A DNA stretch of 64,000 nt, taken from Blastococcus aggregatus. Lineage in GTDB: Bacteria; Actinomycetota; Actinomycetes; Mycobacteriales; Geodermatophilaceae. The stretch's first letter is position 1; every line of letters begins with the position of its first letter. Under the pieces are notes generated by a model. The model was not told the DNA's origin. It searched no databases and was given only the letters and a program-made list of their open reading frames with translations. A program made the position numbers and the translations under genes. The DNA lies in the NCBI RefSeq assembly GCF_900221005.1, contig NZ_OBQI01000003.1, positions 248,001 through 312,000 of the forward strand, read 5' to 3'. Positions 41,115 through 62,013 of this stretch are shown here, piece after piece.

Positions 41115-41594
41115 ATGAGCAGCAACGTGCAGCGACGTGACAAGAGCGGGATCCCGGCATCACCCTTCGCCCGGCTGGACCGGATGTTCGACGAGTGGAT
41201 GCGGACCCTGCCGATGAACCGTGCCCCGGGCTTGCCCTGGGAGACGCGGGGCGAGGACGTCATCGGCGTCGACGAGTACCGCGACGGCGACACCCAGGTC
41301 ATCCGGGCGGAGCTGGCGGGCATCGACCCGGACAAGGACGTCGAGCTGACCGTCACCGACGGGATGCTCCGCATCGACGCCGAGCGCCGGGTCGAGGAGG
41401 ACACCGAGGACAAGGGCTACACGCGGCACGAACTGCGCTACGGGCGGTTCACCCGGAGCCTGCCGATCCCCGAGGGCGTCTCGGCGGACGACGTCACGGC
41501 CAGCTACAAGGACGGCATCCTCGAGGTCCGCATCCCCGTGCCCGAGCCGCCGGCGCCGCCGTCCCCGACGAAGATCGCCATCAGCAAGGGGTGA
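41115..41594 (+). CDS. Small heat shock protein, Hsp20/alpha-crystallin (HspX-like)
   Basis: A 159-residue Hsp20. The alpha-crystallin domain (about 45-140) contains IDPDKDVELTVTDGMLRIDA, ELRYGRFTRSLPIPEGV and ASYKDGILEVRIP. A short C-terminal tail ends with the KIAI (IxI-type) anchor. It is an ATP-independent holdase. The homologous HspX is the classic DosR-induced dormancy antigen in mycobacteria. GAGGAGG precedes the ATG. It follows the universal stress gene by 117 bases and ends inside the convergent P-type ATPase gene. Confidence 0.94.
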   Translation: MSSNVQRRDKSGIPASPFARLDRMFDEWMRTLPMNRAPGLPWETRGEDVIGVDEYRDGDTQVIRAELAGIDPDKDVELTVTDGMLRIDAERRVEEDTEDKGYTRHELRYGRFTRSLPIPEGVSADDVTASYKDGILEVRIPVPEPPAPPSPTKIAISKG

Positions 41595-44082
41595 CGCCCC
41601 CGCCCGTCCGGCCCCGACCGGGCGGGCGACGCCGGTCGGCCACGGCGGAGGTGAGCCGCTCGGCGAGCTCGACGAGGAGCGCCGCCGCAGCCCCGACCGG
41701 CAGCGCGAGCAGCATCGCCCGGGGCGTCACCTCCAGCAGGAAGATGCCCCGCCCCAGGGCCGGCACCAGGAGCACGAGGACGACGATGCCCACCATGGCG
41801 CCGATCAGGGCGACCTTCCACGCCACCAGGGGCCGGGCGAGGATCACCAGCGTCCACAGCGCCGCGATCAGCACCACGACGGTCGCCGTCGTCCGTGCCC
41901 CGGCGACGCCGTCCCCGGGGTCGAGCACGCGCGCCGCCGCGTAGCCGCCGTACGCCGCGGCGCCGGTGATCACGCCCGCGGGTACGGAGAAGCTCAGCAC
42001 CCGGCCCAGGAAGCCGGGCACGTACCGCCGCTTGTTGGGCCCCAGCGCGAGGAAGAAGCCGGGCACCCCGATGGTCACGACCGAGATGAGCGTGAGCTGG
42101 ATCGGCTCCAGCGGATAGGCGCTCACGCTGACGACGGTGATCAGCGCCAGCACCACCGAGTAGACGTTCTTGACGAGGAACAGGTTGGCCGCCCGCTCGA
42201 TGTTGGCGATCACGCGGCGTCCCTCGGCGACGGCGACCGGCAGGTGCGCGAACCGCCCGTCGAGGAGGACCAGCTGGGCGACCGCGCGCGTGGCGGGTGA
42301 CCCGTTGCCCATGGCCACCCCGATGTCCGCGTCCTTCAGCGCCAGCGCGTCGTTGACCCCGTCCCCGGTCATCGCGACCACGTGGCCGCGGCTCTGCAGC
42401 GCGCGCACCATGGCCCGTTTCTGGTGCGGCGTGACCCGGCCGAACACGCTGTGCGCCTCCATGGCGTCCGCGAGCGCGTCGAGGTCCTCGGGCAGGGTCC
42501 GCGCGTCGACGGCGTCCGCCGCGCCGCTGACCCCCGGGACGCCGACGCTCGCGGCGACGACGCCGACCGTCCGCGGGTTGTCGCCGGAGATCACCTTGAG
42601 CGCCACCTGCTGGTCGGTGAAGTACGCGAGGACCTCGCCGGCGTCCTCCCGGATGCGCTCGGCGAGGACGACCAGGGTCACCGGGACGAGCTCCGCCGGC
42701 AGGACGGGCTCGCCGTCGACGACGGCCGGCACGTCCGCCGACCGGGCCAGCAGGAGGACGCGGCGGCCCTCCGCGGCCAGCGCGTCGGACCGTGCACGCG
42801 CTGCCTCGGCCGCACCCGGCGCGGGCGCGGGCAGCACCATCTCCGGAGCACCCAGCACCCAGGTGGCACCGCCCGCGGTGCGGACGGCCGACCACTTGCG
42901 GGCCGACGAGAACGGGATGCCGTCCACCGGCCCCTCGCCCGCCGGCGGCGGGAAGGCCGCCGCCAGGGCCGCCGCGGTGGCGTTGGCCGCGTCGGAACCG
43001 GCGAGCAGTCCCAGGGCCGTGCCGATCTCCTCGTCGGAGGTGGTGGCCGGCGCGCCGTCGTCGACGGGCACCAGCCGGTCGAAGCGGACGTCCCCGTAGG
43101 TGAGGGTGCCGGTCTTGTCCAGGCAGACGACATCCACCCGGGCCAGGCCCTCGACGGCGGGCAGTTCCTGCACCAGGACCTTGCGGCGGGCGAGGCTGAC
43201 CGTCGCGACCATGAAGGCCAGCGTCGTGAGCAGGACCAGCCCCTCCGGGATCATGCCGACCAGCGCGGCCACCGTCCCGGTCACCGCGTCGCGCCATCCC
43301 TCGTTCTCCACCGTGCGGAACTGGCTCCACAGCACGATCGGGCCGACGACCAGCAGCACGATCGCGATCCAGCGCAGCAGCCGGTTGGTGCTCGCGACGA
43401 GCTCGGAGAAGGTGATCGTGAAGCGACGGGCCTCGGTCGCCAGCCGGGTCGCGTAGGCCGCGTCCCCCACGGCGGCCGCCTGGACCGTGGCCTGTCCCGC
43501 GACCACGATCGAGCCGGACCACACCGCCTCCCCTGCCTCCTTGGCGACGGCGTCCGCCTCCCCGGTGAGCAGCGACTCGTCGACCGCCAGCCCCGCGGAG
43601 CCGATCACGAGGCCGTCCGCCGGCACCTGATCGCCCGCCGTCAGCCGGAGCAGGTCGTCCAGCACCACCTCGGTGACGGGCAGGTCGTGCTCGACACCGT
43701 CGCGGACGACCCGGGCGCGGGGCGCGTTGAGCACCGCGAGCCGGTCGAGCGTCCGTTTGGCGCGCAGCTCCTGCACGATCCCGATGGCGGCGTTGGCCAC
43801 CACCACACCGCCGAAGGTGGCGTTCTGCCACCGGCCGGTCAGCGCGGCCACGACCCACAGCGCCACCAGGAGCCCGTTGAAGAACGTGAAGACGTTCGCC
43901 CGCACGATGTCGGGCAGCGTCCGGCTGGTGCGGACCGACGCGGTGTTCGTCTGCTCCGCCGCCACCCGCGCGGCCACGGCGGCGGCGTCGAGACCCCCCT
44001 GCGGCGTACGGGGCCGCTCCGGCAGGGTGGCGGCCGCCTCGCGCGCCATCCCCTGGTCGCGCGACCCCGCCGTGGTGGTCAC
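41581..44082 (-). CDS. Cation-translocating P-type ATPase (CtpE-like)
   Basis: An 833-residue P-type pump. It has the actuator motif LLTGEADAV (Ala in place of the usual Ser in TGES), GMIPEGLVLLTTLAF in helix M4, the phosphorylated Asp in CLDKTGTLTYG (about 322), and the hinge TGDGVNDALALKDADIGVAMG. The helices after the hinge include GVPGFFLALGPN. PEGLVLL and the body resemble mycobacterial CtpE, a Ca2+ uptake pump, so calcium is the likeliest ion (inference). GTG 44082 overlaps the stop of the upstream kinase-like gene, which suggests a functional link. Confidence 0.92.
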   Translation of the reverse strand: MTTTAGSRDQGMAREAAATLPERPRTPQGGLDAAAVAARVAAEQTNTASVRTSRTLPDIVRANVFTFFNGLLVALWVVAALTGRWQNATFGGVVVANAAIGIVQELRAKRTLDRLAVLNAPRARVVRDGVEHDLPVTEVVLDDLLRLTAGDQVPADGLVIGSAGLAVDESLLTGEADAVAKEAGEAVWSGSIVVAGQATVQAAAVGDAAYATRLATEARRFTITFSELVASTNRLLRWIAIVLLVVGPIVLWSQFRTVENEGWRDAVTGTVAALVGMIPEGLVLLTTLAFMVATVSLARRKVLVQELPAVEGLARVDVVCLDKTGTLTYGDVRFDRLVPVDDGAPATTSDEEIGTALGLLAGSDAANATAAALAAAFPPPAGEGPVDGIPFSSARKWSAVRTAGGATWVLGAPEMVLPAPAPGAAEAARARSDALAAEGRRVLLLARSADVPAVVDGEPVLPAELVPVTLVVLAERIREDAGEVLAYFTDQQVALKVISGDNPRTVGVVAASVGVPGVSGAADAVDARTLPEDLDALADAMEAHSVFGRVTPHQKRAMVRALQSRGHVVAMTGDGVNDALALKDADIGVAMGNGSPATRAVAQLVLLDGRFAHLPVAVAEGRRVIANIERAANLFLVKNVYSVVLALITVVSVSAYPLEPIQLTLISVVTIGVPGFFLALGPNKRRYVPGFLGRVLSFSVPAGVITGAAAYGGYAAARVLDPGDGVAGARTTATVVVLIAALWTLVILARPLVAWKVALIGAMVGIVVLVLLVPALGRGIFLLEVTPRAMLLALPVGAAAALLVELAERLTSAVADRRRPPGRGRTGGGVTPC

Positions 44083-45761
44083 AGGAGGCCGCCGGCACGC
44101 AGGTTGAGCCCCACGACCAGGACCACGAGGAGCGCGCCGACGACGGCGGCCCAGGCGAGCAGCACGCGCACGAGGCTCCAGCGCTGCACGCTGATCCTCG
44201 GCCGCGCCGGCAGCAGGCGGCGGAACTCGGTCACCAGGTCCGGCTGCCGGGCATCCAGCATGCGCCGCAGCTGGCGCGGCACGGTGAGCGAACTGGTCGC
44301 GGCGAACGCCTCGGCCAGTTCGTCGGTGCTGAACAACTGCCGCGCGTGCCCGAGCACCCGCTCGGGCCCGGCCGGGAGCGCCAGGATCAGCATCATGTTG
44401 GCCAGGTCGACGGCCTGCCGCCACCGGGAGGGCCGCAGCTCACCGAAGGAGACGTCGATCAGGACGACCTTGGACCCCTGCACCAGGACGTTGGACGGTT
44501 TGACGTCGCGGTGCGCGGCACCCGCCTGCCACAGGTGGCGGATCTGCAGCAGGGCGTCGTGGATCACCTCGTCGGGAACCGGCGACTCGAGGATCTCCAC
44601 GGCGTCCGGCACCAGCTCGGTGACCAGCAGGTATTCCCGCCCCGGCACCACCTCGACCACTCCCCCGGGCTCGGGCACCCGCACGCCGGAGTCCCGCAGC
44701 AGGCGGAGCATGTAGTCCTCGTGCTCGACGAGCCGGCGGACCGAGGAGAACGGCGCCTCGTCCTCCAGTCGCCCGTAGCGCAGGACGCGCACGTACTTGT
44801 ACCAGCGGTCCGAGCGCAGGTGCGTGGTCGCGTACAGCTTTCCGAACAGCAGGAGCGGTGATCGGTCGGCGACGACCAGGCGGCAGGGAGTGGACCCGGC
44901 CGACCCGTCCAGCCGGTAGGGGTCGATGTCGCTGAGCGGGATGCCGAGCTGGTTCCGCACGGCCGCCATGATCCGGCCCTTGCGTGCCGCGTCCAGCCGG
45001 AGATGTGCCTTCACCTCCCGGTGGTAGACGACGGGGAACTCCCGCTCGGGGGCGAACAGGGTGAACGCCAGTGCCGCGGCGCTGCACCCCAGCCCGGCAC
45101 TGGCCACGGTGGCCGTGGCGCTGTCCAGTCCGAGCGTCACGCGGGCGGCGGCCATGGCGGCGACGGCCGCCACACCCACCGCACAGGCGATCCGGCGCCA
45201 CCGGCCCGCCGGCGCGAGGGCGATGACCGTCGCCGCGACCACCGTCGACATGACGATGACCGGCCAGGCGGGGACGACGACGGCGTCGTCCGAGCCGGTC
45301 ACCGAGCGCCGGACGGCCCGCACGAAGGCACCGTCACCCCCGACGACCTGCGCCGTCGCGGCCACGACCGACACGGTGCCCAGGTACACGACCAGGTGCC
45401 GCCACCGGGCGAACCAGACCAGGATCAGCGCGGCCGGCACCCACAGCGCGCGGTAGCCCACCGCGGACCCGATCGCGTCGAGGTCGGCGGCGACGGTCGG
45501 CAGGTCCCCGCGACGCAGGAGGTCCTGGACCGCCCCGTCCAGGGCCTGGACCGGCCCGTCCTGCTCGGTCACCACCCGGAGGAGCACCAGCGCCGACATC
45601 GACGCGACCAGGGCCGTGGCCCACAGCGCCAGCCTGCCCGGATCCCGGGGCGACGGGACCGGCTCCTGCCCCGACGGGCGGCGCCGGGGCGCCCCGTCGG
45701 TCCAGGGCGGACGCCGAACGTCCTCGGCGCGGACCAGCGTGCCGCGCGGTGGGGTGTCCAC
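44079..45761 (-). CDS. Membrane protein with degenerate PAP2-like part and RIO/InaA-like kinase domain
   Basis: A 560-residue fusion. Residues about 45-255 form six or so membrane helices that align with the PAP2 layout, but the signature positions are altered: PAWPVIVMST (162-172) where PSGHA is expected and ARVTLGLDSATATV (205) where SRxxxxxHxxxD should be. Residues about 290-500 are kinase-like with YHREVKAH, AHRDVKPSNVLV (415) and LIDVSFGEL. A final helix is at 535-555. GGGAGGGA precedes GTG 45761. It is translationally coupled to the CtpE-like pump. Confidence 0.8.
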   Translation of the reverse strand: MDTPPRGTLVRAEDVRRPPWTDGAPRRRPSGQEPVPSPRDPGRLALWATALVASMSALVLLRVVTEQDGPVQALDGAVQDLLRRGDLPTVAADLDAIGSAVGYRALWVPAALILVWFARWRHLVVYLGTVSVVAATAQVVGGDGAFVRAVRRSVTGSDDAVVVPAWPVIVMSTVVAATVIALAPAGRWRRIACAVGVAAVAAMAAARVTLGLDSATATVASAGLGCSAAALAFTLFAPEREFPVVYHREVKAHLRLDAARKGRIMAAVRNQLGIPLSDIDPYRLDGSAGSTPCRLVVADRSPLLLFGKLYATTHLRSDRWYKYVRVLRYGRLEDEAPFSSVRRLVEHEDYMLRLLRDSGVRVPEPGGVVEVVPGREYLLVTELVPDAVEILESPVPDEVIHDALLQIRHLWQAGAAHRDVKPSNVLVQGSKVVLIDVSFGELRPSRWRQAVDLANMMLILALPAGPERVLGHARQLFSTDELAEAFAATSSLTVPRQLRRMLDARQPDLVTEFRRLLPARPRISVQRWSLVRVLLAWAAVVGALLVVLVVGLNLRAGGLL

Positions 45762-45857: not shown

Positions 45858-45871
45858 GGGACGGAGGTCCC
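45858..45871. promoter_or_regulatory. DosR-like palindrome GGGACGGAGGTCCC
   Basis: Perfect half sites GGGAC/GTCCC around GGAG, 97 bases before the kinase-like gene. The same 14 bases occur again at 62000-62013. Confidence 0.55.
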
Positions 45872-46036: not shown

Positions 46037-46336
46037 GTGTCCCGCACCGCCGTCCTGCTCGCGGTCGCGCTGCTGCCGGCCGCGGTCGGCCTCGTCGACG
46101 TCCTCCGGGACGGCACGTCCGACCTCGTCGTCGTGCTGGCCGCGACCCTGCTCCTGCTCGCTGCGGCGCTGGCCAGCGCCGTGCGGGACCGGCACGTGGT
46201 CCAGCTGCGACCGGACCTGGCGGCCTGGCTGAGCGCCCGGTCGGCCGCCACCGGGGAACCCGTGGAACGGCTGGCCGACCGGTGCGTCGCCGCCTACCGG
46301 TCGGCCCTGACCGGCGTCCCCGAGGACGTGGCGTGA
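46037..46336 (+). CDS. Small membrane-anchored protein with ribbon-helix-helix-like tail
   Basis: A 99-residue protein. Two hydrophobic helices (about 4-20 and 28-48) are followed by a cytosolic segment HVVQLRPDLAAWLSARSAAT and PVERLADRCVAAYRSAL. The strand-helix-helix pattern looks like a CopG/Arc ribbon-helix-helix. A membrane-bound RHH would be unusual, and the resemblance is by eye only. GTG 46037 follows AGGTGG. Its stop overlaps the PEP-synthase-like gene (GTGA). Confidence 0.65.
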   Translation: MSRTAVLLAVALLPAAVGLVDVLRDGTSDLVVVLAATLLLLAAALASAVRDRHVVQLRPDLAAWLSARSAATGEPVERLADRCVAAYRSALTGVPEDVA

Positions 46337-48699
46337 CCACGCTGACCGTCGCCGGACCCGTGGTCCTCCTCCGCCCCGGCACTCCGGCCGCGGCGGCCGA
46401 GCTGGGAGGCAAGGCGGGATCCCTCGACCGGCTGGTCCAGGCGGGCTTCCCCGTACCCCCGACCGCCGTCGTCACGGCCACGGCCTACCGCGGCGTGGCC
46501 GCCCACCCCGACCTCGCCGGCCTGCTGACCCGGGTGCGGGACGGGGCCGTCGTCCCCTCCCCCGAGGTGGACGAGGCCTTCCTGGCCGTTCCCGTCGATG
46601 CCGCCGTGACGCAGGCGCTGATCGACGCCGCTCGCTCGGTCGGCGGCGGTGCCCCGGTCGCCGTCCGCTCGTCGGCCACGGTCGAGGACATGGCGGGGGC
46701 CTCCTTCGCCGGGCAGTACCGCTCCTCCCTGGACGTCGCCCCGGACGAGGTCCTCCATGCCGTCCGGCTGACGTGGGCGTCGCTCTGGCACCCGGCACCG
46801 GTCGCCTACCGGCGGGCCTGGGGCATCACCAGCGACGACATCGCCATGCCCGCGGCGATCATGCGCATGGTCCCCGCTCGGACGGCCGGCGTCGTCTTCA
46901 CGGTCGATCCCGGGGGCGCCGGGGACCGGGCGCGGGTGGAAGCCGTGCCGGAGCTCGGCGAGGCGCTCGTGTCCGGCGCACGCACTCCGGCCGTGTGGCT
47001 CCTGCCGCGAGACGGCTCCTCGGCCGGGCCCGACGTCCCGCCGGAGGTGCAGGAGGCCGCGGAGCTGGCCCTGCGGGTGGAGCGCACGGTCGGGGGTGGC
47101 GTCCCGCAGGACGTGGAGTGGGCCTGGGACGGCGACCGGACCTGGGTGGTGCAGGCCCGGCCGATCACCACCGGGCCGACGAGGACCGACGACGGCAGCG
47201 ACACGGTCGGCGACGACGCCGAGCTGACCACGGCGGGGATCGGCGAGACCCTCCCCGGGTTCCTTCCCCCGCTGGTCTGGGAGCTGGGCTCCTTCCTGGT
47301 GGAGGAGGCGCTCCGGACCGTGCTGGGCCGGCTGTGGGGACTCCCGGGCGACCGTTCCGGTCCGCACGAGTTCGTCCGCCGGGTGCACGGCCGCGCAGCC
47401 CTGGACCTGGATCTGCTGAAGGCAGCCGCGGGGGCCGTCCCCGGCGGGTCCGAGGCCGAGCTGGAGCGCCAGTACTTCGGCGCCGCCATGGCCGACGCCG
47501 ATGAGGGCACCCCGGCACCGTGGTGGCGCACCGCGCGCTATGCCCTCCGCGGCGCCTCCGCGCGCCGGCGCGCCGTGGCCGAGGCCGCCGTGGTCCTCGC
47601 GACCACGGACGAGGTGCTGACGGACCCCCCGGATCTGGTGGACCTGACCGACGCCGACCTGCTCGCCTACCGGCAGCGGCTCGTCGACCTGGGCGCGCGC
47701 GGGATGACGGTGGAGCTGTCCGTCGCGTCCGCGGCCGTGGCGGCGTACCGCGAACTGGAGCGCACGCTGGCCGGCCACCTGGGCGAGGACGCGGCCGCCT
47801 CCGCCGCTCAGCGGGTGACCGTGGGCGCCGGGGCCCGGCGCGACCGCTCACCGGCCACGTCCCGGTCGGTCTTCGCCGGCCCCACCTGGAGCGAGAGCGA
47901 CTCGGTCGCGATGCCTCCCCAGGTGCCGCGGGGCCCCGAGCGGGAGGCGGCCCAGCACGACCTCGAGCGGGAGCTGACCACCCAGCGCTCGTGGCGCCGG
48001 GTCCGGATCCTGACGGGGCAGCTCGTCGACGTCCGGCTGCACGTGCTCCGCCGGCTCATCGGGGACGCCTCCGAGGGGCTGGCCCGGCGCGAGAACGTCA
48101 AGGCCGCCGTGCTCGCCGTCGGCGGCGAGGTACGGCGCGTGCACCTGGAGGTGGGGCGCCGGCTCACGGAGTCCTCCGTGCTCGACAGCCCGGACGACGT
48201 CGACCTGCTGCGCACTGCCGAGCTGCGTGCGGCGCTCCGCGGCGCTGCTCCGCCCCCGGCCGAGCTCGCGCGACGCCGCCGCTGGATGCGACAGCACCTG
48301 CAGGACCCCCCGCTGCCGGTGCGCTTCACCGGCACGCCGTCCGCGGCGCCGGTGGAGGCGCCGCGGGGCGACCGCCTCGAGGGGTGGGCGGCGAGCCCGG
48401 GCCGGCACACCGGCCGGGCGCGCGTGCTGACCGAGCCGTCCCCCGACCTGCTCGCACCCGGGGACGTGCTGGTCGCGGCGGCGACCGACGCCGGGTGGTC
48501 GCCGGTCTTCCTGCGGGCCGGCGCCATCGTGGTGGAGCGGGGCGGCCCGCTGTCCCACGCGGCGATCGTGGCCCGCGAGCTCGGCCTGCCCGCCGTGCTC
48601 AACCTCCCCGGCGCGACCGCCGCACTCGACGGCCGGCGGGTGACGGTGGACGGCGACTCCGGGGTGGTCCTCGTGCTCCCGGAGGAGGACCAGCCGTGA
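46333..48699 (+). CDS. PEP/pyruvate-binding phosphotransferase (PEP-synthase/rifampicin phosphotransferase-like)
   Basis: A 788-residue protein. An N-terminal PPDK-type ATP-grasp domain (about 10-280; GGKAGSLDRL, AVRSSATVEDMAGASFAGQY, VVQARPIT) is followed by a variable central domain (about 300-690). The C-terminal swivelling phosphohistidine domain has GGPLSHAAIVARE (His about 740). This order is that of rifampin phosphotransferases and stand-alone PEP-synthase relatives, not of full PpsA, which has an extra TIM-barrel. The substrate phosphorylated is unknown. It overlaps both neighbours by four bases. Confidence 0.85.
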   Translation: MTTLTVAGPVVLLRPGTPAAAAELGGKAGSLDRLVQAGFPVPPTAVVTATAYRGVAAHPDLAGLLTRVRDGAVVPSPEVDEAFLAVPVDAAVTQALIDAARSVGGGAPVAVRSSATVEDMAGASFAGQYRSSLDVAPDEVLHAVRLTWASLWHPAPVAYRRAWGITSDDIAMPAAIMRMVPARTAGVVFTVDPGGAGDRARVEAVPELGEALVSGARTPAVWLLPRDGSSAGPDVPPEVQEAAELALRVERTVGGGVPQDVEWAWDGDRTWVVQARPITTGPTRTDDGSDTVGDDAELTTAGIGETLPGFLPPLVWELGSFLVEEALRTVLGRLWGLPGDRSGPHEFVRRVHGRAALDLDLLKAAAGAVPGGSEAELERQYFGAAMADADEGTPAPWWRTARYALRGASARRRAVAEAAVVLATTDEVLTDPPDLVDLTDADLLAYRQRLVDLGARGMTVELSVASAAVAAYRELERTLAGHLGEDAAASAAQRVTVGAGARRDRSPATSRSVFAGPTWSESDSVAMPPQVPRGPEREAAQHDLERELTTQRSWRRVRILTGQLVDVRLHVLRRLIGDASEGLARRENVKAAVLAVGGEVRRVHLEVGRRLTESSVLDSPDDVDLLRTAELRAALRGAAPPPAELARRRRWMRQHLQDPPLPVRFTGTPSAAPVEAPRGDRLEGWAASPGRHTGRARVLTEPSPDLLAPGDVLVAAATDAGWSPVFLRAGAIVVERGGPLSHAAIVARELGLPAVLNLPGATAALDGRRVTVDGDSGVVLVLPEEDQP

Positions 48700-51548
48700 C
48701 GCGCACCGGCAGCAGACGCCGCGTCAAGGAGGACTGGTGGGCCGACGCCGACATCGACCGCGCCCAGATCTTCGTGCCGGCCATCATGGGTGCCGGGCTG
48801 CTGATCTCGGCGTTCACCCTCGTCCGCGACGCCTTCCACGGCAGGCACCGCCGTGGCCGGGACCGCCGGACGGTGCTCCAGGCGCGGGCCAGCGCCGCCT
48901 TCGTCCGGACCGGGACCCCGCCTGACGCCGCCCTGCTCTCCGGGCTCCGGCCCCGCCTGCACTACCTGTTCCTCGGCCTGTCCGCCGGCGGCCTGGCCGT
49001 CTACGGCGCCCGTGGGGCCACGAAGAACTACGCCCCCGACGAGGGCATGTTCGCGGGACTGGCGTGGATGTACGCACTCCTGCTGGCCCTGGTCGCCGCC
49101 CTCGCCGTCGTCTCCGCGCTATCGCTGCTCACCGCGGCGACCTGGCCCGACCTCCCCCGCTGGGCGCGCCCACTCCTCGCCGTCACCCCGCTGGGGCAGG
49201 CACCCGTGGAGGGGCAGCGGCGCGGCAGCCTGCTGGTCGGGTGGGCGGCCCTGCTGACGGCGGCGGCGGCCGTGCAGTTCGTCTTCACCACCGCAGGCGC
49301 GCCGCAGCTGCTCGCCGAGCTCGACGACGAGATCACCGACCCGGTCGCCTCCGTCGTGCCCTGGGAGCTCCTCGGCGGAGTGCCGCTGGCGGTGGGTCTG
49401 GCCGTCGTCGTCGGTGTCGTGGGACGGCGCTGCCCCACCTTCGCGCTGGGGCAGCTCGGCGTGGTGGTCGGCGCGCTGATCGCCCACGCTCTCTTCGCCG
49501 ACCGGCTGGAGCGGGCCTTCCCACCGGACGGCCCGATGGCCGGATTGACCGGCTCCCTGCCGAGCGCGCCCGCTCTCCAGGCCACCCTGTTCGCCGGGTT
49601 CCTCCCGCTCGCGGTGTACGTCGCCACCCGGCGGCGCACGGCCGCCCTGGTCGCGCTGGGCCTGACCTCCGCCGGCGTGCTCGCCGCGTCGTTCGAGATC
49701 GTCCGGAGCCGCCTGTCCTGGCCGTCGGACGTCGTCGCCGGCGTGCTCCTCGGGCTCGCCCTCGTGCTCGGCACCTGGTGGGCGCTGGAGCACCGGCCGT
49801 GGCACCGGCGCTGCGCCGCCTGCCCGTGGGAGCTGCCCGGCGACGTGCGCGCCGGCCCCGGCCTGCTCCAGGTCCCCGCCGCGCGCGAGCGGACGGTCCG
49901 CCGCGGAGCCCGCCTGTGGCTCGCCGGCGCGGTCGTCCTGTTCGCCGCCCTCGCTCTCGTCGAGGGGCTCCCGGCCAGCCCGGAGGGCGTGGCCATGGGA
50001 CCGGCGCTGTCCAGGCAGCTCCAGCTGGCGCTGCTGGGACTGGCGGCGGTCGCCCTGCTGGTCGCGCTCCGCTGGGAAGCGGTGGGAGCGGCGCTCGCCG
50101 CCCTCGCCGGTACCGGGCTCGCGGTCTTCGCGTCCATCACCTACCAACCGTGGGTCAGCCTCCTGATCGCGGGCCTCTTCCTCGTGCCGGCGGTCGGCTT
50201 CTGGCTGGTGTGGCAGCACCGCCGCACGATGCGCGCGGTGGTCACGCTGGCGATGGCCACGGCGCTACTGCTCGCGGGCACCTTCGGCGCCTCGGCCGAG
50301 ATCTACGACCGGCTGTTCGGCCCGCTCCACCCGCGCTCGGCAACGCTGCCGCTGGCGGTCGACGCGGTGGCCTGGACGTGGAGCGGCGCGGTGACCGCGC
50401 GCTCGGCCGAGGTCGTCGCCAAGATCGACGGCGACGCGGACGAGGTGCGCCTCGCCGTGACCGGCGGCGACGGGACCGTCCGCTCCGACGTCGTCCCGCC
50501 GGGTCCCGACGACGTCGTCCGGCTGGACGTCGACGGGCTCGAGCCCGGCACCGACTACCGGTACGCCGTCGAGGTGGACGGTGAGCCCGACCGCAGCCGC
50601 GGAGCAGGGACGTTCAGCACCCCGCCGGAGGGCCCGGCGTCCTTCACCATCGCCGTGGCCTCGTGCGCCCGCACCGGCTCGAGCGGCGCGGTGTTCGACG
50701 CCATCCGGGCGGTCGACCCGGCGCTGTTCATCCACATGGGCGACCTGCACTACGCCAACATCGCCCGGGACGAGCCCACGTTGTTCGGCGACCGCTACGA
50801 GGACGCGCTCACCTCGCCGGCCCAGGCCGCGCTGTACCGCGCCGTGCCGGTGTCCTACGTCTGGAGCGACCACGACTACGGCCCGGAGAACGCCGACTCC
50901 TCCTCCCCCAGCCGGGACGCCGCCCGTGCGGCCTACCGCACCTACGTACCGCACCACGAGCTCGTGGAAGGGGACGGCGGTGCGATCTACCACGCGTTCA
51001 CGATGGGCCGCGTGCGCGTCGTCATGACCGACACCCGCTCGGAGAAGACCGACACCACGATGCTCGGCGAACGGCAACTGGTCTGGCTGCAGGACGAACT
51101 GGTCACCGCGAGCCGCGACCACGCCCTCGTGCTGTGGGTGAACCCCGATCCGTGGGTGGCGCCCGACGAGCCGGGGCGCGACGACTGGGGCGGATACGCC
51201 GACGAGCGCCGGCGGATCGCGGACACCCTCGCCGACGCGGGCGTGGAGAACCTGGTCATGGTCAGCGGTGACGCCCACATGGTCGCCGCCGACGACGGCA
51301 CGAACACCGACTACAGCACCGGCGGCCGGGGCGGCTTCCCGCTCCTGCACGCCGCCGCCATGGACTCCCCCGGAACGCTGAAGGGCGGCCCCTACAGCGA
51401 GGGGGCGTTCCCGGGGGCGGGCCAGTTCGGCACGGTGACGGTGACCGACACCGGCGGCGACGCCGTCGACGTCGAGCTGACCGGACGCAACTGGCGGAAC
51501 GAGGTGCTGGTGTCCTACCGGACGCGCCTGCCCGTCCCGTCCTCGTGA
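48696..51548 (+). CDS. Large membrane protein with degenerate PAP2-like region and PhoD-type metallophosphatase
   Basis: A 950-residue fusion. The N half has about a dozen membrane helices. PSAPALQATLFAGF (288) and RSRLSWPSDVVAG (335-345) look like PAP2 motifs in which SGH has become SAP and the second His is lost. After a Fn3-like PhoD N-domain (about 560-640) comes a PhoD metallophosphatase (about 645-930) with FIHMGDLHY, WSDHDYG and VSGDAHM. GGAGGA precedes GTG 48696, which overlaps the previous stop. It probably hydrolyses phosphodiesters at the outer face (inference). Confidence 0.8.
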   Translation: MTRTGSRRRVKEDWWADADIDRAQIFVPAIMGAGLLISAFTLVRDAFHGRHRRGRDRRTVLQARASAAFVRTGTPPDAALLSGLRPRLHYLFLGLSAGGLAVYGARGATKNYAPDEGMFAGLAWMYALLLALVAALAVVSALSLLTAATWPDLPRWARPLLAVTPLGQAPVEGQRRGSLLVGWAALLTAAAAVQFVFTTAGAPQLLAELDDEITDPVASVVPWELLGGVPLAVGLAVVVGVVGRRCPTFALGQLGVVVGALIAHALFADRLERAFPPDGPMAGLTGSLPSAPALQATLFAGFLPLAVYVATRRRTAALVALGLTSAGVLAASFEIVRSRLSWPSDVVAGVLLGLALVLGTWWALEHRPWHRRCAACPWELPGDVRAGPGLLQVPAARERTVRRGARLWLAGAVVLFAALALVEGLPASPEGVAMGPALSRQLQLALLGLAAVALLVALRWEAVGAALAALAGTGLAVFASITYQPWVSLLIAGLFLVPAVGFWLVWQHRRTMRAVVTLAMATALLLAGTFGASAEIYDRLFGPLHPRSATLPLAVDAVAWTWSGAVTARSAEVVAKIDGDADEVRLAVTGGDGTVRSDVVPPGPDDVVRLDVDGLEPGTDYRYAVEVDGEPDRSRGAGTFSTPPEGPASFTIAVASCARTGSSGAVFDAIRAVDPALFIHMGDLHYANIARDEPTLFGDRYEDALTSPAQAALYRAVPVSYVWSDHDYGPENADSSSPSRDAARAAYRTYVPHHELVEGDGGAIYHAFTMGRVRVVMTDTRSEKTDTTMLGERQLVWLQDELVTASRDHALVLWVNPDPWVAPDEPGRDDWGGYADERRRIADTLADAGVENLVMVSGDAHMVAADDGTNTDYSTGGRGGFPLLHAAAMDSPGTLKGGPYSEGAFPGAGQFGTVTVTDTGGDAVDVELTGRNWRNEVLVSYRTRLPVPSS

Positions 51549-51666: not shown

Positions 51667-54096
51667 GTGACAACCCGAGAGGCGACGCCCCTGGCCACGT
51701 CCCCGCAGGAGACGCCGGCGCCCCGCCGGACGACGACGACCCAACGGCATCCCGTCGACCTGGTGCGCGTCGTGCTCGGCCTGGCGATCTTCGGGCTCGG
51801 GTTCCTCATCGCCCAGCGGGGCGAGCTCCCCGTCCTCGAGGGCGACCTGTTCCGGATCGTCAACAACCTCCCCGAGATCGTCTTCCCCGTCGTCTGGGCG
51901 GTGATGCAGCTCGGCAACGTGGTCGCCGTGCCGGTGGTCGCCGGCGTGGCCGCGCTGACGCGGCGCTTCCGCATGGCCCGGGACATGCTGGTCTCCGGCC
52001 TGCTGGCCTATTTCGCCGCCGACTTCGTCAAGAGCGTCGTCGGGCGGGAGCGTCCGGCCGGTCTGGTCGACGCCAACCTGCTCGACGGCAACGTCAGCGG
52101 CATCGGCTTCATCTCCGGGCACGCCGCGGTGGCGGCGGCGCTGGCGACCGCCGCGGTGCCCTACCTCACCCGCCGCGGCCGACGAGCAGCCTGGGCGCTG
52201 GCCTGGACCGTGGCCCTCGCCCGGGTCTACGTGGGGGCGCACCTGCCGCTGGACATCATCGGTGGAGCGGCGGTGGGCTGGGCCATCGGATCGCTGGTGC
52301 ACTACGTCCTGGGGGTGCCGCGCTGGGAGCCGGAACTCGCCCGCGTGGCGGCGCTGCTGCACCGCTTCGGCCTGCCCGTCCGGGACCTGCGCCCCGCCGA
52401 CGTGATCGCCCGCAGCTCGCACCCCTTCGTCGCCCTCGACGACGACGGCCGGCAGCTGTACGTGAAGGCGCTGGACCCCGACCGCTTCGAGCGGGACTGG
52501 GTGTACCGGCTGTACCGCTTCATCGCCGTGCGCGACGTGAAGGACGCCGACGCCGTCGCACCGCTGGGGCAGCAGGCGGAGCACGAGGCCGTGGCCGCGA
52601 TGACCGCCCGCGAGCGCGGCGTGCGCGTGCCTGCCGTGGTGCTGGCCCGCGGCACCGACAGGGGTGGCGTCGTGGTGCAGCAGCACGTGAACGGGCGCCC
52701 GCTGGACGACCTGCCGTCCCAGGAGGTCACACCGGCCCTCCTGGCGGAGGTCTGGCACCAGGTCGCCCGGCTGCGCGCCGCACGGATCGCGCACCACGAC
52801 CTCGTGGCCTCGAGCGTGCTGGTCGACCGCGCCGGCGAGCCCTGGATCGTGGACTTCGGCAACGCGCAGACCGGTGCGGACGCCCAGAGCCTGGACGGGG
52901 ACACCGCCGAACTCATGGCGTCACTGGCGCTGCACGTCGACGCGGAACTGGTCGTGGCCTCCGCGCTGGACGGGCTCGGCGCCGACGCCGTCAGCGCGGC
53001 CCTCCCCGGGCTGGCGCCGCTCACCCTCTCGTCGGCCACCCGGAACGGGATGCGGGCGCGGCCCGGCCGCCTGCGCGCCCTGCGGCGCGAGATCCGCCGG
53101 CGGCTGCAGCTGCCCGACCCCGGCCGGCCCGAGTTCGGTCCGCCCGGGCTCACGGCCCGGCTGGCCGTGGCAGCCGGGGTGGCGCTCGTGCTCATCGGCG
53201 TGCCGCTGCTGGCCGGCGCGACCGACGTCGTGGAGTCCGTCGAGGTGGGCGGATGGCGCTGGCTGGGCGGCGCGTTCGCGCTCGCCGTGCTGGCCCGCGC
53301 CGCGATGGCCGCGGCGGCACTGCTCACCGTCCAGCGGCGGCTGGCCCTGGGCCGGACCTTCGGCGCGACCCTGGCCGCCGACGGCGCCACGCTGCTGCAC
53401 GGGCGCACCGGGTGGCGGCGCTCGGCGGCGCGGTTCCTCGAGCGGGCCGGCGTCGTCCCCGGCGAGGCGCGCCGGGCGACGGACCGCTTCGTGGCGGGCG
53501 CCATCGTGGCCGCCGTCCTGGTCGCGCTCGGCACCCTGGTCCTCGCCGTCGTCGAGGGACGGCTCACCGGCTGGCGGACGCCCGAGGCCCTCGTCCCGGC
53601 CGTGCTCCTCGGGTTGGCCGCCTGGGGTCTCGTCCTGGTCGGGCAGGAACTGGCACGCCGGCACGGGGCCGCGGCCGTTCCGGTGGGTGACGCCGAGCCC
53701 CCCGGGCAGGTGACCCGCACGCTGCGCGAGGCCCTCACCGGTCGCGGCGCCGCGACCGCCGGCCGGAACTTCTGGCCGCAGCTGGGCTGGGCCTCGCTGG
53801 GCGTGGCACTGGAGGCGGCGGCACTGGCGGCGGCGTTGCACGCCGTCGGCGGGAACGTGCCGTTGCTGGCGACGATGACGGTCTACGGCGCGCTGCACAT
53901 GCTCTGGTCGGTGCTGCCCGTCACCGGCATGCCCGGTGCCGCGGACGTCGCCCTCCTGCTCGCGCTGCTGGCTCTGGGGGCCCCCCTGGCCAGCGCATGC
54001 GCCGGCGTCCTCGCCTTCCGGTTGCTCACCTTCTGGATCCCCGCCGGGCTCGGATCGCTCCTCTCGGCCCGGTTCGAGCACCGTCATCTGACGTGA
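51667..54096 (+). CDS. PAP2 phosphatase - kinase-like - flippase-like triple fusion
   Basis: An 809-residue protein in three parts. Residues about 35-225 are an intact PAP2 phosphatase (KSVVGRERP 121, SGHAAV 150, RVYVGAHLPLD 188). Residues about 230-480 are a small-molecule/lipid kinase-like domain with AHHDLVASSVLV (376) and VDFGN (DFG kept). Residues about 500-805 are a membrane domain like the LPG-synthase/UPF0104 family. It probably handles undecaprenyl or phosphatidyl substrates (inference). GTG start with weak Shine-Dalgarno. It overlaps the next gene by four bases. Confidence 0.85.
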   Translation: MTTREATPLATSPQETPAPRRTTTTQRHPVDLVRVVLGLAIFGLGFLIAQRGELPVLEGDLFRIVNNLPEIVFPVVWAVMQLGNVVAVPVVAGVAALTRRFRMARDMLVSGLLAYFAADFVKSVVGRERPAGLVDANLLDGNVSGIGFISGHAAVAAALATAAVPYLTRRGRRAAWALAWTVALARVYVGAHLPLDIIGGAAVGWAIGSLVHYVLGVPRWEPELARVAALLHRFGLPVRDLRPADVIARSSHPFVALDDDGRQLYVKALDPDRFERDWVYRLYRFIAVRDVKDADAVAPLGQQAEHEAVAAMTARERGVRVPAVVLARGTDRGGVVVQQHVNGRPLDDLPSQEVTPALLAEVWHQVARLRAARIAHHDLVASSVLVDRAGEPWIVDFGNAQTGADAQSLDGDTAELMASLALHVDAELVVASALDGLGADAVSAALPGLAPLTLSSATRNGMRARPGRLRALRREIRRRLQLPDPGRPEFGPPGLTARLAVAAGVALVLIGVPLLAGATDVVESVEVGGWRWLGGAFALAVLARAAMAAAALLTVQRRLALGRTFGATLAADGATLLHGRTGWRRSAARFLERAGVVPGEARRATDRFVAGAIVAAVLVALGTLVLAVVEGRLTGWRTPEALVPAVLLGLAAWGLVLVGQELARRHGAAAVPVGDAEPPGQVTRTLREALTGRGAATAGRNFWPQLGWASLGVALEAAALAAALHAVGGNVPLLATMTVYGALHMLWSVLPVTGMPGAADVALLLALLALGAPLASACAGVLAFRLLTFWIPAGLGSLLSARFEHRHLT

Positions 54097-55175
54097 CCCC
54101 AGCGGCGGTGCTGTCCCGCCCGGGTGGGAGTCCGCGGGGGGTTCTCCGGGGATCCGCGGCGCGACTTGCGCTCACGGTCGGTGTGGTGGCGGCGATCTTC
54201 GGCGGGATCCTCCCCCGTATCGCCGACTACGGGCAGGCCTGGGACCTGGTGCGCGCCCTCACCTGGGCGGAGACCGCCCTCGTCGCCGTCGTGGGTGCCG
54301 TGAACCTGGGGTCCTACGCACTGCTGTGGGCGGCGGCCGTTCCCGGGCTCGGCTGGTGGCGGGCGCTGATGGTCGACCAGTCGTCCACGGCGATCTCCAA
54401 CACCGTCCCGGCCGGTTTCGCCTTCGGCGTCGGCACGACCGCGGCCATGTACCACTCCTTCGGGTTCTCCCCCGGGGTGATCACCCGTGCGGTCGCGGTC
54501 ACCGGCATCTCGAACAGCCTGGTGAAGCTGGCCATGCCGGCGCTGGCCCTGCTCGGCCTGCTCCTGGTCCGCGACCCCCATCCGGGGCTCGCGGTCGCCG
54601 CCGTCCTCGGCAGCGTGCTCCTGCTGGTCGCCGTCGCCGCGCTGACGGCCGTGCTGACGCACCGCCGGGCCGGTGCGGTGCTGGCGGGGGCCGCCGAGCG
54701 CGTGGCCGGACGGATCGCGCGGCGACGGGGCCGGTCCGGGCCCTCCGGCTGGGTCGGGCGCACCGACCGCTTCCGGACCGACTCCCTGGAACTGCTCCGT
54801 ACCCGCTGGGTGGCGCTGGCCGGCGCCGCAGTCTTCAGCCACGTGGCGCTGTTCCTGGTGCTGCTGACCTGCCTGCGCACCGTGGACGGGCAGGGCGCCG
54901 ACGTGCACTGGGTCGTCGTCCTCGCGGTGTTCGCCGTCACCCGGCTCGTGACGATCGTGCCGATCACGCCCGGCGCGCTCGGCGTCGCCGAGCTCAGCTA
55001 CGTCGCCGGCCTCACGGCCGTCGGGGTCGGCGCCGCCGCCGCCGGCGGTGCGGTGCTGCTCTTCCGCCTCCTCACGTGGTTCCTCCCCGTCCCGCTCGGC
55101 CTCGGCGCCTGGCTGCTCTGGCGACGGGGCGCGGGACAGGACCGGGAGCCTGCGGCCGCCGGTGCCGCGACGTGA
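54093..55175 (+). CDS. Lysylphosphatidylglycerol synthase/UPF0104-type membrane protein
   Basis: A 360-residue protein with about eight helices, of the LPG-synthase transmembrane (AglD/UPF0104) family. Characteristic are SSTAISNTVPAGFAFG (about 95), ISNSLVKLAMP and IVPITPGALGVAELSYV (about 290). The family flips or modifies membrane lipids, and there is no soluble transferase domain here. The GTG start overlaps the preceding stop, and the gene overlaps the PAP2 gene behind it. The three act in one translational chain. Confidence 0.88.
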   Translation: MTPAAVLSRPGGSPRGVLRGSAARLALTVGVVAAIFGGILPRIADYGQAWDLVRALTWAETALVAVVGAVNLGSYALLWAAAVPGLGWWRALMVDQSSTAISNTVPAGFAFGVGTTAAMYHSFGFSPGVITRAVAVTGISNSLVKLAMPALALLGLLLVRDPHPGLAVAAVLGSVLLLVAVAALTAVLTHRRAGAVLAGAAERVAGRIARRRGRSGPSGWVGRTDRFRTDSLELLRTRWVALAGAAVFSHVALFLVLLTCLRTVDGQGADVHWVVVLAVFAVTRLVTIVPITPGALGVAELSYVAGLTAVGVGAAAAGGAVLLFRLLTWFLPVPLGLGAWLLWRRGAGQDREPAAAGAAT

Positions 55176-55816
55176 GCCGGGCGCACCGGCGGCGATGGGC
55201 GGACGCCGCCACGCTCCTGGTCGCCGCAGGCCTCGCCGGCCTCTGCGCCCGGGCGGTCGCCCCCGGAACGGTCGGGGACCTGGAGCGACGCGTCTTCGCG
55301 GTCGTGAACGGATGGCCGGACGACGTCGAGCAGCCGCTGTGGGTGTTCCAGACCCTCGGTGTGCTCGGCATGCCGCTCGTGGTCGCCGTCGTCGCCCTCG
55401 CACTGCGGCGGTGGCGGCTCGCGCTGGCCCTGGCCCTGCTGGTCCCGCTCAAGCTGCTCGTCGAGCACGCGGTCCTCAAGGAGCTGGTCCACCGGGAGCG
55501 GCCGGGCACCACGATCCCGGACGCGATCCTGCGCGACGTGCCGTCCGCCGGGCCCGCGTTCCCCTCGGGTCACGCGGTCATCGCGTTCGGGATCGTCGTC
55601 CTGCTCGCGCCCTACCTGCGCCGGCGGTGGCTGGTCGTCGTCGTCGCGCTGGCCGTGCTCAACTCGGTGGCCCGGGTGTACCTCGGCGGTCACGCCCCGC
55701 TCGACATGATCGGCGGGGCGGCCGCCGGGGCGGCGGTGGGTGCCCTGCTGAACCTGGCCGTGGGCGTTCCGGCCGGTGCGCCCGACGGGTCGGTCAGGGC
55801 GCATCCGGTGAGATGA
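55172..55816 (+). CDS. PAP2 superfamily phosphatase
   Basis: A 214-residue membrane phosphatase with all three PAP2 signature motifs: KELVHRERPG (103), PSGHAVIAFG (131) and ARVYLGGHAPLD (168-178). It dephosphorylates lipid phosphates such as undecaprenyl pyrophosphate or phosphatidic acid. It is the last gene of the plus-strand envelope operon, starting with GTG in a 4-base overlap. Its 3' end overlaps the convergent repeat protein. Confidence 0.92.
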   Translation: MSRAHRRRWADAATLLVAAGLAGLCARAVAPGTVGDLERRVFAVVNGWPDDVEQPLWVFQTLGVLGMPLVVAVVALALRRWRLALALALLVPLKLLVEHAVLKELVHRERPGTTIPDAILRDVPSAGPAFPSGHAVIAFGIVVLLAPYLRRRWLVVVVALAVLNSVARVYLGGHAPLDMIGGAAAGAAVGALLNLAVGVPAGAPDGSVRAHPVR

Positions 55817-56060: not shown

Positions 56061-56134
56061 GTGCCGCTCCCCGTCGTCCGCCGTGCCGGTGCATGCGAGC
56101 CCACAGACTGCTCATGGACCGGTCCGCGGAGGCA

Positions 56135-56148
56135 GGGCCGAAGGTCGT
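56135..56148 (-). promoter_or_regulatory. DosR-like box upstream of pump and repeat protein
   Basis: Minus-strand ACGACCTTCGGCCC, 12 of 14 identical to GGGACCTTCGGCCC. It lies 75 bases before the repeat protein and about 130 before the small ORF of the pump operon. Confidence 0.55.
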
Positions 56149-56179
56149 GTCCGGGCCGGGACCACCCGGTGCGCCGGCC

Positions 56180-56193
56180 GGGACCTCCGCACC
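56180..56193 (+). promoter_or_regulatory. DosR-like box upstream of the P-type ATPase operon
   Basis: GGGACCTCCGCACC, 84 bases before ATG 56277, in plus orientation. Confidence 0.45.
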
Positions 56194-56276
56194 TCTGCCG
56201 CTCTGCGCGGTCGGACCAGGCTGGACGACGATCGGCCCTCCGCGGCCGCAGCCCGTGCGCGGATCAGGAGTTCCAG

Positions 56277-56378
56277 ATGGCGAGCCCGTCCGCATCCGGC
56301 CTCCGCCCGCCGCCGGCGGCCCGCCTCGTCCGGGACGAAGGCCTCGTGCCCGGCTCGATGGCGCCTCGGCACAGGTGA
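56277..56378 (+). CDS. Short ORF (33 codons) coupled to the P-type ATPase
   Basis: ATG with AGGAG at the right distance opens a 33-residue frame (begins MASPSASGL, ends APRHR) whose third positions are nearly all G or C, as in real genes here. Its TGA overlaps the GTG of the ATPase (GTGA). The ATPase itself has no Shine-Dalgarno of its own other than this. It may be a leader peptide or a microprotein that couples translation to the pump. No homologue is known to me. Confidence 0.55.
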   Translation: MASPSASGLRPPPAARLVRDEGLVPGSMAPRHR

Positions 56379-60183: not shown

Positions 60184-60938
60184 CCACCGGCGACCTGACC
60201 ACCCGGAGCACGGCCCTCGGCGCGCGCCTTGATGCCCCGGAGCATCCGCCGCTCCATCACGAATCCGACCGGCTCGACCAGCCGCCACATCAGGCGCTGC
60301 GCCGGCGGGCGGCTGAGCCGCTGCCGCACGAGGAGCCTGGTGCGCCGGCCGCCGCCCGACGGCCGGAGGATCCACTGCCAGGTGACCACCGGGGTTCCGG
60401 CGCCCGCCCGGGCCTGCTCGTCCGGGGCGTCCGGCCCGGCGCTGACCAGCACCAGGGCGACCGGAGGCCGCACGGCGTGCACGCGGAAGGAGGGGGCGCG
60501 GCCCGGGGCGAGCCGGACGACGTCCCCCACCGCGACGTCCTGGTGCTCCGGCAGCACGTGGTCGGCGCTGTGGATGTCGCAGCGGCAGAGGTTCTCCAGC
60601 CCGTCGTAGCTGTAGAAGCCACCCCGGCCCTGGCCCATCTGCGCCACCCAGGGCCAGACGACGTCCACCGGCGCGTCGACGGTGATGCCGCGCGTGTACC
60701 CCAGATCCGGGGCAGCGACCAGCTCGTCCCCGGGCAGGTCTGCGGTGACCTCTTCCTCGTCCACGCCCCACCGGTTGTAGCGGCGCCGGAGCACCGGGGA
60801 CGCGACCACGGCGCCGAGGACGAGTGCGCCGCCCACGACGACGTCGGCGGCGGCGGTGCCGATCCGCCGCACCGCACCGCGGATCGGCCGACCGGCAGGA
60901 CGGAGGTCGGCCCGCTGGGGAACCGCGCTCGAGCTCAC
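60171..60938 (-). CDS. SRPBCC family protein with N-terminal membrane anchor
   Basis: A 255-residue protein. One transmembrane segment (about 30-50, VVVGGALVLGAVVA) is followed by a START/SRPBCC-like lipid-binding domain with GITVDAPVDVVWPWVAQMGQ and GGFYSYDGLENL. The C terminus is basic. It may bind a lipid or hydrophobic ligand near the membrane. GTG 60938 overlaps the stop of the upstream universal stress gene (GTGA), so both are produced together. It overlaps the nitroreductase tail to tail. Confidence 0.85.
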   Translation of the reverse strand: MSSSAVPQRADLRPAGRPIRGAVRRIGTAAADVVVGGALVLGAVVASPVLRRRYNRWGVDEEEVTADLPGDELVAAPDLGYTRGITVDAPVDVVWPWVAQMGQGRGGFYSYDGLENLCRCDIHSADHVLPEHQDVAVGDVVRLAPGRAPSFRVHAVRPPVALVLVSAGPDAPDEQARAGAGTPVVTWQWILRPSGGGRRTRLLVRQRLSRPPAQRLMWRLVEPVGFVMERRMLRGIKARAEGRAPGGQVAGGQVS

Positions 60939-61999: not shown

Positions 62000-62013
62000 G
62001 GGACGGAGGTCCC
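62000..62013. promoter_or_regulatory. DosR-like palindrome between Usp and CBS genes
   Basis: GGGACGGAGGTCCC, identical to the site at 45858-45871. It is 76 bases from the minus-strand start and 80 from the plus-strand start, and the symmetric place fits control of both. Confidence 0.6.

Follow-up and report, generated by a model that had tools for sequence, protein, structure and literature searches.

A predicted actinobacterial family of seven-helix membrane kinases with a PAP2 fold that lacks its catalytic histidines

We analysed a stretch of 64,000 nucleotides of the Blastococcus aggregatus genome (assembly GCF_900221005.1, contig NZ_OBQI01000003.1, positions 248,001 to 312,000; hereafter the window, numbered from its first letter), and in particular one gene on its reverse strand, here called PK. 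Judged by sequence and predicted structure, PK is one of an actinobacterial family of proteins with seven helices in which a dead PAP2 fold is joined to a RIO/Bud32-like kinase. The reading that we prefer, with a probability of roughly 45%, is that the dead PAP2 half of PK would bind a lipid or other ligand and control the kinase half, and that PK, as a membrane kinase, acts on the same lipid-handling module. The gene and its parts are as follows.

44079–45761, reverse strand: PK, a pseudo-PAP2–kinase fusion of 560 residues with a GTG start (ORF calls and family alignments)
45051–45641, reverse strand: degenerate PAP2 domain, residues 41–237, with six predicted membrane helices (AlphaFold model, VIA, hydropathy and profile match)
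45123–45125, reverse strand: Asp213, which takes the place of the catalytic C3 His (alignment of 81 sequences)
44214–44999, reverse strand: RIO/Bud32-like kinase domain, residues 255–516 (Pfam RIO1 and VIA match to PRPK)
44505–44513, reverse strand: HRD triplet, H417-R418-D419
44094–44174, reverse strand: C-terminal membrane helix, residues 530–556, with the C terminus predicted outside (model and hydropathy)

The coordinates, strand and frame of the open reading frame (ORF) were confirmed. Just upstream of its GTG start at 45761 lies GGGAGGGA, read by eye as a good ribosome-binding stretch, and its stop codon overlaps the GTG start of a P-type ATPase gene in a GTGA (44079–44082), an overlap already recorded in a preliminary description of this DNA. 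The G+C content is 72–77% throughout the window. Hydropathy and charge give a layout of six helices, a cytoplasmic kinase, one further helix and a short outer tail; from the charge pattern and the topology of PAP2 proteins, the N terminus and the kinase are predicted to lie inside the cell, and the old phosphatase pocket and the C terminus outside. The closest named relatives come from Blastococcus, Modestobacter, Trujillonella and Geodermatophilus. For comparison, 80 loci were kept from 136 relatives (56 were left out) and aligned with window PK to give 81 sequences; these loci are not independent, and they overlap with the assemblies of the 60-genome search described below. They divide into clade A (15 loci and the window, 16 sequences) and clade B (65 loci).

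The assignment of the membrane half to PAP2 comes from the relatives, from a profile and from a model. Window PK by itself gave no Pfam PAP2 match at E ≤ 1, a result that alone would oppose the assignment; it is overturned by the other three lines of evidence. Pfam PAP2 was matched by 49 of 67 aligned PK relatives, with a best E of 4.9e-10, and a profile of the membrane half found Bacillus subtilis PgpB (BsPgpB; 5jki) at E 3.3e-13. An AlphaFold model of the membrane half alone, based on 65 alignment rows, has a predicted local distance difference test score (pLDDT) of 89.9 and a predicted template modelling score (pTM) of 0.87. Comparison of this model with 5jki by VIA gave a Z of 16.1 and a root-mean-square deviation of 3.1 with 178 residues aligned; the eight best VIA rows all belong to the PAP2 superfamily (Z 16.1 to 10.3), and the next row has a Z of 7.4. 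Foldseek with the membrane half alone returned nothing at E ≤ 0.001, with 5jki at E 0.082, and a fold search with the whole protein was dominated by kinases and is uninformative on this half.

The catalytic residues of the fold are missing. In window PK both the PSGH and the SRx5Hx3D motifs are lost, with PAWP at C2 and ARVTLGLDSATA at C3, while the clade B proteins carry relics of the PAP2 motifs: RPRP, then PSxP in place of PSGH, then SRLYLAQDHPTD in place of SRx5Hx3D. His is absent from both catalytic positions, and Lys from the C1 position, in every one of the 81 sequences; the C2 His has given way to Pro in 80, and the C3 His to Asp in 77, Glu in three and Tyr in one. By descent, as judged from fold and profile similarity, PK is a member of the PAP2 superfamily; as an enzyme, defined by the His residues of PSGH and SRx5Hx3D, it is not a PAP2 phosphatase. 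The sequence and the model thus indicate that the front half of PK is a PAP2 fold without catalytic histidines, and in this the preliminary description, which had seen a PAP2 layout with its SGH and HxxxD residues gone, is upheld.

The back half adopts a kinase fold in the model of the full-length protein (pLDDT 84.1), so that neither of the two folds proposed in the preliminary description was found wanting; the HRD triplet and the DVS version of DFG that it had named are also both present. Window PK exceeds the cut-off of Pfam RIO1 (PF01163; 26.2 bits against 22), a model that 59 of the 67 relatives match at E ≤ 0.01. It falls below the cut-offs of the Hanks-type model Pkinase (PF00069; 19.8 against 31.7 bits), with DVS replacing DFG, and of the Bud32/KEOPS model TIGR03724 (31.6 against 125 bits), yet the latter is matched by all 67 members at E ≤ 0.001. 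None of the NCBIfam models, the kinase models shown included, reaches its cut-off on window PK; PknB_PASTA is matched by 10 of the 67 members, with a best E of 0.00016. In VIA the best rows are PRPK (Z 15.6), RIOK3, Bud32 and RIO1, most of them at Z 13.9–15.6; next come APH (13.2), homoserine kinase (13.1) and WaaP (12.2), and rows not more than 1 Z apart are treated as ties. RIO kinases have a RIO-specific loop and a role in ribosome maturation.

Residues K308, E348, H417, R418, D419, K421, N424 and D436 are each present in all 81 sequences. The set of Lys, Glu, HRD Asp, Asn and DFG Asp is accordingly complete throughout the family, with E348 assigned as the helix-C Glu by position, and the residues after the DFG Asp are V, S, T, P, F or L and then A or S (F in one). 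Going by these residues, the kinase half is likely to be active. A role in a defence system was also considered and rejected; the PADLOC matches are short and fall on the catalytic loop of the kinase.

PK was matched in 21 of 60 genomes (that of B. aggregatus included): besides B. aggregatus itself, 19 genomes gave strong matches and one (G054) a weak match. The strong matches comprise clade A proteins, 61–75% identical and present in six other genomes, and clade B proteins, 42–45% identical; the B. aggregatus genome carries one PK of each clade, that of the window being clade A. Among 296 sampled Actinomycetota genomes, the PK profile matched 134 at E ≤ 0.001, many of them in the kinase part alone, and by our own reading of the table 21 at E ≤ 1e-50.

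The company that PK genes keep bears on what the protein may do, and the neighbours in the window and just beyond it are listed here.

41581–44082, reverse strand: P-type ATPase gene that overlaps PK by GTGA (Pfam, NCBIfam)
45858–45871, no strand assigned: DevR/DosR-like box GGGACN4GTCCC, 110 bp upstream of PK
46330–48699, forward strand: PPDK_N/phosphoenolpyruvate-utilising enzyme gene on the divergent side, start assumed (Pfam)
51667–54096, forward strand: KFLIP, a co-linear PK homologue made of a PAP2 domain with intact motifs, a kinase domain with the catalytic-loop Asn changed to Ser, and an LPG_synthase_TM domain (Pfam, alignments)
54090–55175, forward strand: stand-alone LPG_synthase_TM flippase-like protein, start assumed
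55172–55816, forward strand: stand-alone PAP2 that keeps SGH and HxxxD, start assumed (alignment row L181)
L187:337–2748, own genome, just beyond the window: DevS/DosT-like GAF histidine kinase, DevR-like regulator
L187:3563–4561, own genome: nitroreductase beside the DevS/DevR-like genes

As far as gene order goes, PK genes accompany flippases and apparently working PAP2s more regularly than they accompany an ion pump. In clade B, an LPG_synthase_TM flippase or a KFLIP lies within 6 kb in 55 of the 65 loci, and stand-alone PAP2 matches lie within 6 kb in 37; of 54 such PAP2s, 48 have both SGH and Rx5Hx3D in the matched stretch, some of the others being incomplete matches. In Pfam searches the flippase of L061 was confirmed, as were the PAP2s of L061, L072 and L111. 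In clade A, KFLIP is found up to 9 kb upstream on the opposite strand in 13 of the 15 loci and in the window, where it stands beyond the divergent genes together with a second flippase and a PAP2 whose motifs are intact. The wider neighbours of clade B (OpuAC, acyl-CoA dehydrogenase, BrkB, MFS and others), called by a crude gene-finding heuristic, are lineage-specific and were not used.

A third partner is particular to clade B. In 59 of its 65 loci a gene for a short lipoprotein starts within 200 bp of the end of PK, and in three more (L068, L074 and L099) the lipoprotein lies within the PK reading frame, the last three loci being at a contig edge. In the three fusions the lipoprotein domain follows the last helix, with no canonical lipobox seen by eye in between; this arrangement would place the domain outside the cell and tie it to the kinase. 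The lipoprotein alignment has four invariant cysteines and a nearly invariant lipobox Cys. No Pfam family matched the copies of L061 and L080, and no PDB relative was found at E ≤ 1. As a separate observation, two acidimicrobial lipoproteins (L111:1693–2550 and L090:10623–11474) carry an insert with weak similarity to an anticodon-binding domain (PF03129; E 9e-06 and 0.0071).

KFLIP is a homologue of PK: a profile comparison is co-linear over the PAP2 and kinase parts (415 columns, E 1.1e-19). In a kinase tree of 117 sequences, built without a true outgroup and rooted for display only, all 81 PK sequences group together (support 0.906) inside the KFLIP-type sequences, and the 16 of clade A again form one group (support 0.953). 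At E ≤ 1e-20 the KFLIP profile had matches in 36 of the 296 sampled Actinomycetota genomes, a count that takes in stand-alone PAP2s. At E ≤ 1e-60 KFLIP was found in 12 of the 60 genomes, including all seven with a clade A PK, and all 12 also hold some PK; kinship was ignored in both counts.

Among KFLIP-type and PAP2–kinase proteins every mixture by motif occurs. Both sets of motifs are intact in L151, L152, L153 and L154 and in L180, the second KFLIP copy of the B. aggregatus genome; an intact PAP2 accompanies an altered kinase loop in window KFLIP and in L155 and L156, whose matches lack the flippase part; the PAP2 motifs are lost and the kinase loop kept in L158 and L161; and both are lost, with the architecture retained, in L171–L175 and L177–L179, from genomes of family f18. 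A further KFLIP-like protein, at G026:C12:266462–268687 (L027, L200), likewise has lost PAP2 motifs and a kept kinase loop. The catalytic-loop Asn is Ser in all 12 aligned KFLIP rows, while L180 keeps Asn. We considered reciprocal degeneration, in which a PK with dead PAP2 and live kinase would be matched by a KFLIP with live PAP2 and dead kinase, and rejected it on the strength of L180 and of the Ser found in KFLIPs from genomes without a clade A PK.

In clade A, the PK gene of the window also lies within what appears from its sequence to be a DevSR-type dormancy island. The sequence immediately beyond the window encodes a homologue of DevR (3c3w, E 4e-81) and a GAF-histidine kinase resembling DevS/DosT (2vzw, E 2e-54). 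Inside the window there are genes for three universal stress proteins (Usp), for Hsp20, for a nitroreductase and for a PPDK-type enzyme. Universal stress proteins, nitroreductase and pyruvate phosphate dikinase are among the predicted OsdR targets in Streptomyces given in PMC5069765. PK shows the two features by which we judged membership of a DevR/DosR regulon, a box upstream and DevR/DevS homologues in the genome; the box is not identical to the stringent mycobacterial form, GGGACTTNNGNCCCT, as given in PMC6448022.

The weight of the box rests on its enrichment upstream of clade A PK genes and on its clustering in the genome. An exact box within 250 bp upstream of PK was found for 5 of the 16 clade A sequences as compared with 1.1% of random windows, and a box with at most one mismatch for 11 of 16 as compared with 6.2%, one of these (L044) being at the aligned start. 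Allowing two mismatches, 15 of 16 clade A loci have a box, but so do 32% of random windows. The B. aggregatus genome (4.62 Mb) holds nine exact boxes as against six a strand for a reversed control pattern, and three of the nine are clustered within 26 kb here. In the window, two exact boxes were found where 0.56 were expected, a number reached in 10 of 100 shuffles, and the loose pattern showed no enrichment (14 found, 14.3 expected). In clade B no box was found in any of the 65 loci, in roughly 560 bp upstream, to the extent that the sequence reaches that far. The DevR-type box suggests that clade A PK plays a part in growth arrest. The second exact box of the window, GGGACGGAGGTCCC at 62000–62013, is near a Usp gene (60935–61924, reverse strand) and an ORF with a CBS domain, on the other strand.

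Taken together, these data can be read as follows. At the outer leaflet the dead PAP2 half would bind its ligand, a lipid phosphate or another compound, without hydrolysing it, and in clade B the lipoprotein might serve as a co-receptor. The state of the ligand would be relayed through the helices to the cytoplasmic kinase, whose putative substrate is a component of the same module, either a lipid of the inner leaflet or a protein, for example the flippase or KFLIP. In the window clade, the gene would have been taken into a DevR/DevS-type hypoxia and dormancy island, so that the module would be deployed at growth arrest. Lipid sensing by the dead half is plausible. A more specific version, which we put forward tentatively, has PK as a bacterial receptor kinase for lipids. 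Its PAP2 fold would recognise a lipid phosphate of the outer leaflet without hydrolysing it, working in clade B with the cysteine-conserving lipoprotein; the signal would pass via the RIO/Bud32-like kinase to flippases and phosphatases that handle this same lipid, and in part of the Geodermatophilaceae the receptor would be wired to DevSR. The genetic linkage of a dead phosphatase, a kinase, live phosphatases and a flippase makes transmembrane sensing of the state of a lipid carrier or phospholipid in bacteria testable, and the cluster partners (the lipoprotein family, the flippases and the PAP2s) are candidate substrates and co-receptors.

Several observations weigh against a kinase governed by its PAP2 half. 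Ser or Ala replaces the Gly of DFG in 80 of the 81 sequences, a change that could slow catalysis. The Asn-to-Ser change of KFLIP is also present in four of five KFLIPs from genomes without a clade A PK, so a strict division of labour between PK and KFLIP is unsupported. No lipoprotein gene lies within 3 kb of PK in any of the 15 clade A loci, and the idea of a co-receptor is therefore not transferable to the window protein. RPRP is missing from clade A, as for the most part is the last Asp of C3, and the membrane half of this clade has evolved more loosely than its kinase; on either count the membrane half might only be an anchor. Finally, 57 of the 65 clade B sequences have a His displaced by one residue beyond the C3 position and 24 of the 65 have one immediately before PS, and some catalysis may be possible in this clade.

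A possible but doubtful alternative is that PK is itself a lipid kinase, whose RIO/Bud32/WaaP-like half phosphorylates an inner-leaflet lipid, a polyprenol or a lipid-linked sugar, with the dead PAP2 as a holding or docking domain in a PAP2–kinase–flippase cycle and no signalling. Kdo/WaaP models match 50 of the 67 members and APH models 31 (E ≤ 0.01), PAP2s and flippases are steady neighbours, and the lower VIA rows include APH (Z 13.2) and WaaP (12.2). Nevertheless, PRPK, RIOK3, RIO1 and Bud32 score higher than these, and window PK falls below the gathering score of the Kdo/WaaP family (PF06293; 19.7 against 21.3 bits).

The PAP2 half might instead be a mere anchor, a relic of an ancestral PAP2–kinase–flippase protein, with the kinase constitutive. 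We regard this as unlikely. It would fit the motif losses of clade A and also the substitution ratios (dN/dS by Nei–Gojobori), calculated for 14 hand-picked pairs. In the nine clade A pairs the ratio was 0.27–0.44 for the membrane half and 0.18–0.26 for the kinase, and in the five clade B pairs 0.11–0.39 and 0.09–0.22; the membrane half was the looser in all nine of the former and in four of the latter. These values nevertheless indicate purifying selection on both halves in the 14 pairs. A single helix would be enough for anchoring, and yet the old pocket keeps conserved residues: an acidic one where the C3 His would stand in 80 of 81 sequences, Arg207 in 70 of 81 and, in clade B, Arg148-Pro149 in 65 of 65, Pro164 in 65 of 65 and Pro167 in 64 of 65.

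The preliminary description proposed that the kinase phosphorylates and controls the overlapping pump. The gene overlap and the proximity on which this was based hold in part of clade A: a P-type ATPase follows PK within 300 bp in the window and in 6 of the 15 loci, and lies downstream within 9 kb in 10 of 15. Five of the 15 have none in the sequence covered (for L050, only 5 kb downstream), and in clade B none of 65 loci has one within 300 bp and one has it within 9 kb, whereas flippase and PAP2 genes go with both clades. Because stress genes are clustered here, co-regulation accounts for the overlap equally well. Control of the pump is compatible with clade A, but it has the least comparative support and we consider it improbable. 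The description of the pump as calcium-type was itself over-called, since the ATPase passes the general cut-off of the HAD-IC P-type ATPase subfamily and no ion-specific one among the 25 families shown.

That the PAP2 half still catalyses on the outer face, with the conserved Asp that replaces the C3 His (D/E in 80 of 81) as nucleophile or through the displaced His of clade B, is very improbable, given that all 81 sequences lack the C2 His and the C1 Lys and that clade A, the window included, has no displaced His (0 of 16 at position 214, none before PS). To our knowledge, no PAP2 enzyme uses an acidic residue as its nucleophile.

Known systems would offer partial parallels to a membrane kinase under the control of an inactive PAP2 half. 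Bacterial receptor-type Ser/Thr kinases, such as the PASTA kinase PknB, combine a membrane sensor and a cytoplasmic kinase in one polypeptide. PK shares this design, and in the three natural fusions also has an outer domain, but its sensor would be a polytopic pseudo-phosphatase. With the RIO, Bud32 (PRPK) and WaaP–Kdo kinases it shares the kinase fold and the K, E, HRD, N and D residues, and it differs from them in being fused to a membrane domain, in scoring under the NCBIfam kinase cut-offs shown and in having DVS for DFG. PAP2 lipid phosphatases (PF01569; BsPgpB 5jki, EcPgpB and LpxE) have the same six-helix fold and a motif layout of which PK keeps a remnant, and differ in having the catalytic His and Lys residues. 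The PAP2–kinase–LPG_synthase_TM proteins, for which we found no published name, are co-linear with PK; they add a flippase-type domain, have intact PAP2 motifs in many cases and are variable in the kinase loop.

The vertebrate PLPPR/PRG proteins provide a precedent, by analogy, for inactive PAP2 relatives as regulators. According to PMC9520309, these PAP2 relatives have no agreed lysophosphatidic acid phosphatase activity, having lost it and become regulators; like PK, they are of the PAP2 type with substituted C1–C3 residues, have six helices and cytosolic termini, and their role is regulatory rather than catalytic, as proposed for PK. They differ in being vertebrate and in having an unstructured cytosolic tail instead of a kinase, and a separate origin is probable. 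Inactive PAP2 relatives are already familiar from vertebrate neurons; PK combines a pseudoenzyme domain and a kinase in one membrane protein. Among the open-licence papers searched we found no description of a PAP2–kinase fusion, nor of a bacterial inactive PAP2 relative, alone or joined to a kinase, and a search by terms of the microbial kinome paper PMC1821047 did not find PAP2, flippase or transmembrane.

Three further observations concern neighbouring genes and loci. At 48696–51548 (forward strand) the window encodes a membrane protein in which a sub-threshold PAP2 match is joined to a PhoD-like phosphatase, and at 56093–58978 (forward strand), downstream of the flippase and PAP2 genes, there is a second P-type ATPase gene. 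Locus L095 (SPQJ01000004.1), titled Bacillus sp. AZ43, carries a clade B cluster 81–90% identical to that of Blastococcus L061 and is probably misnamed.

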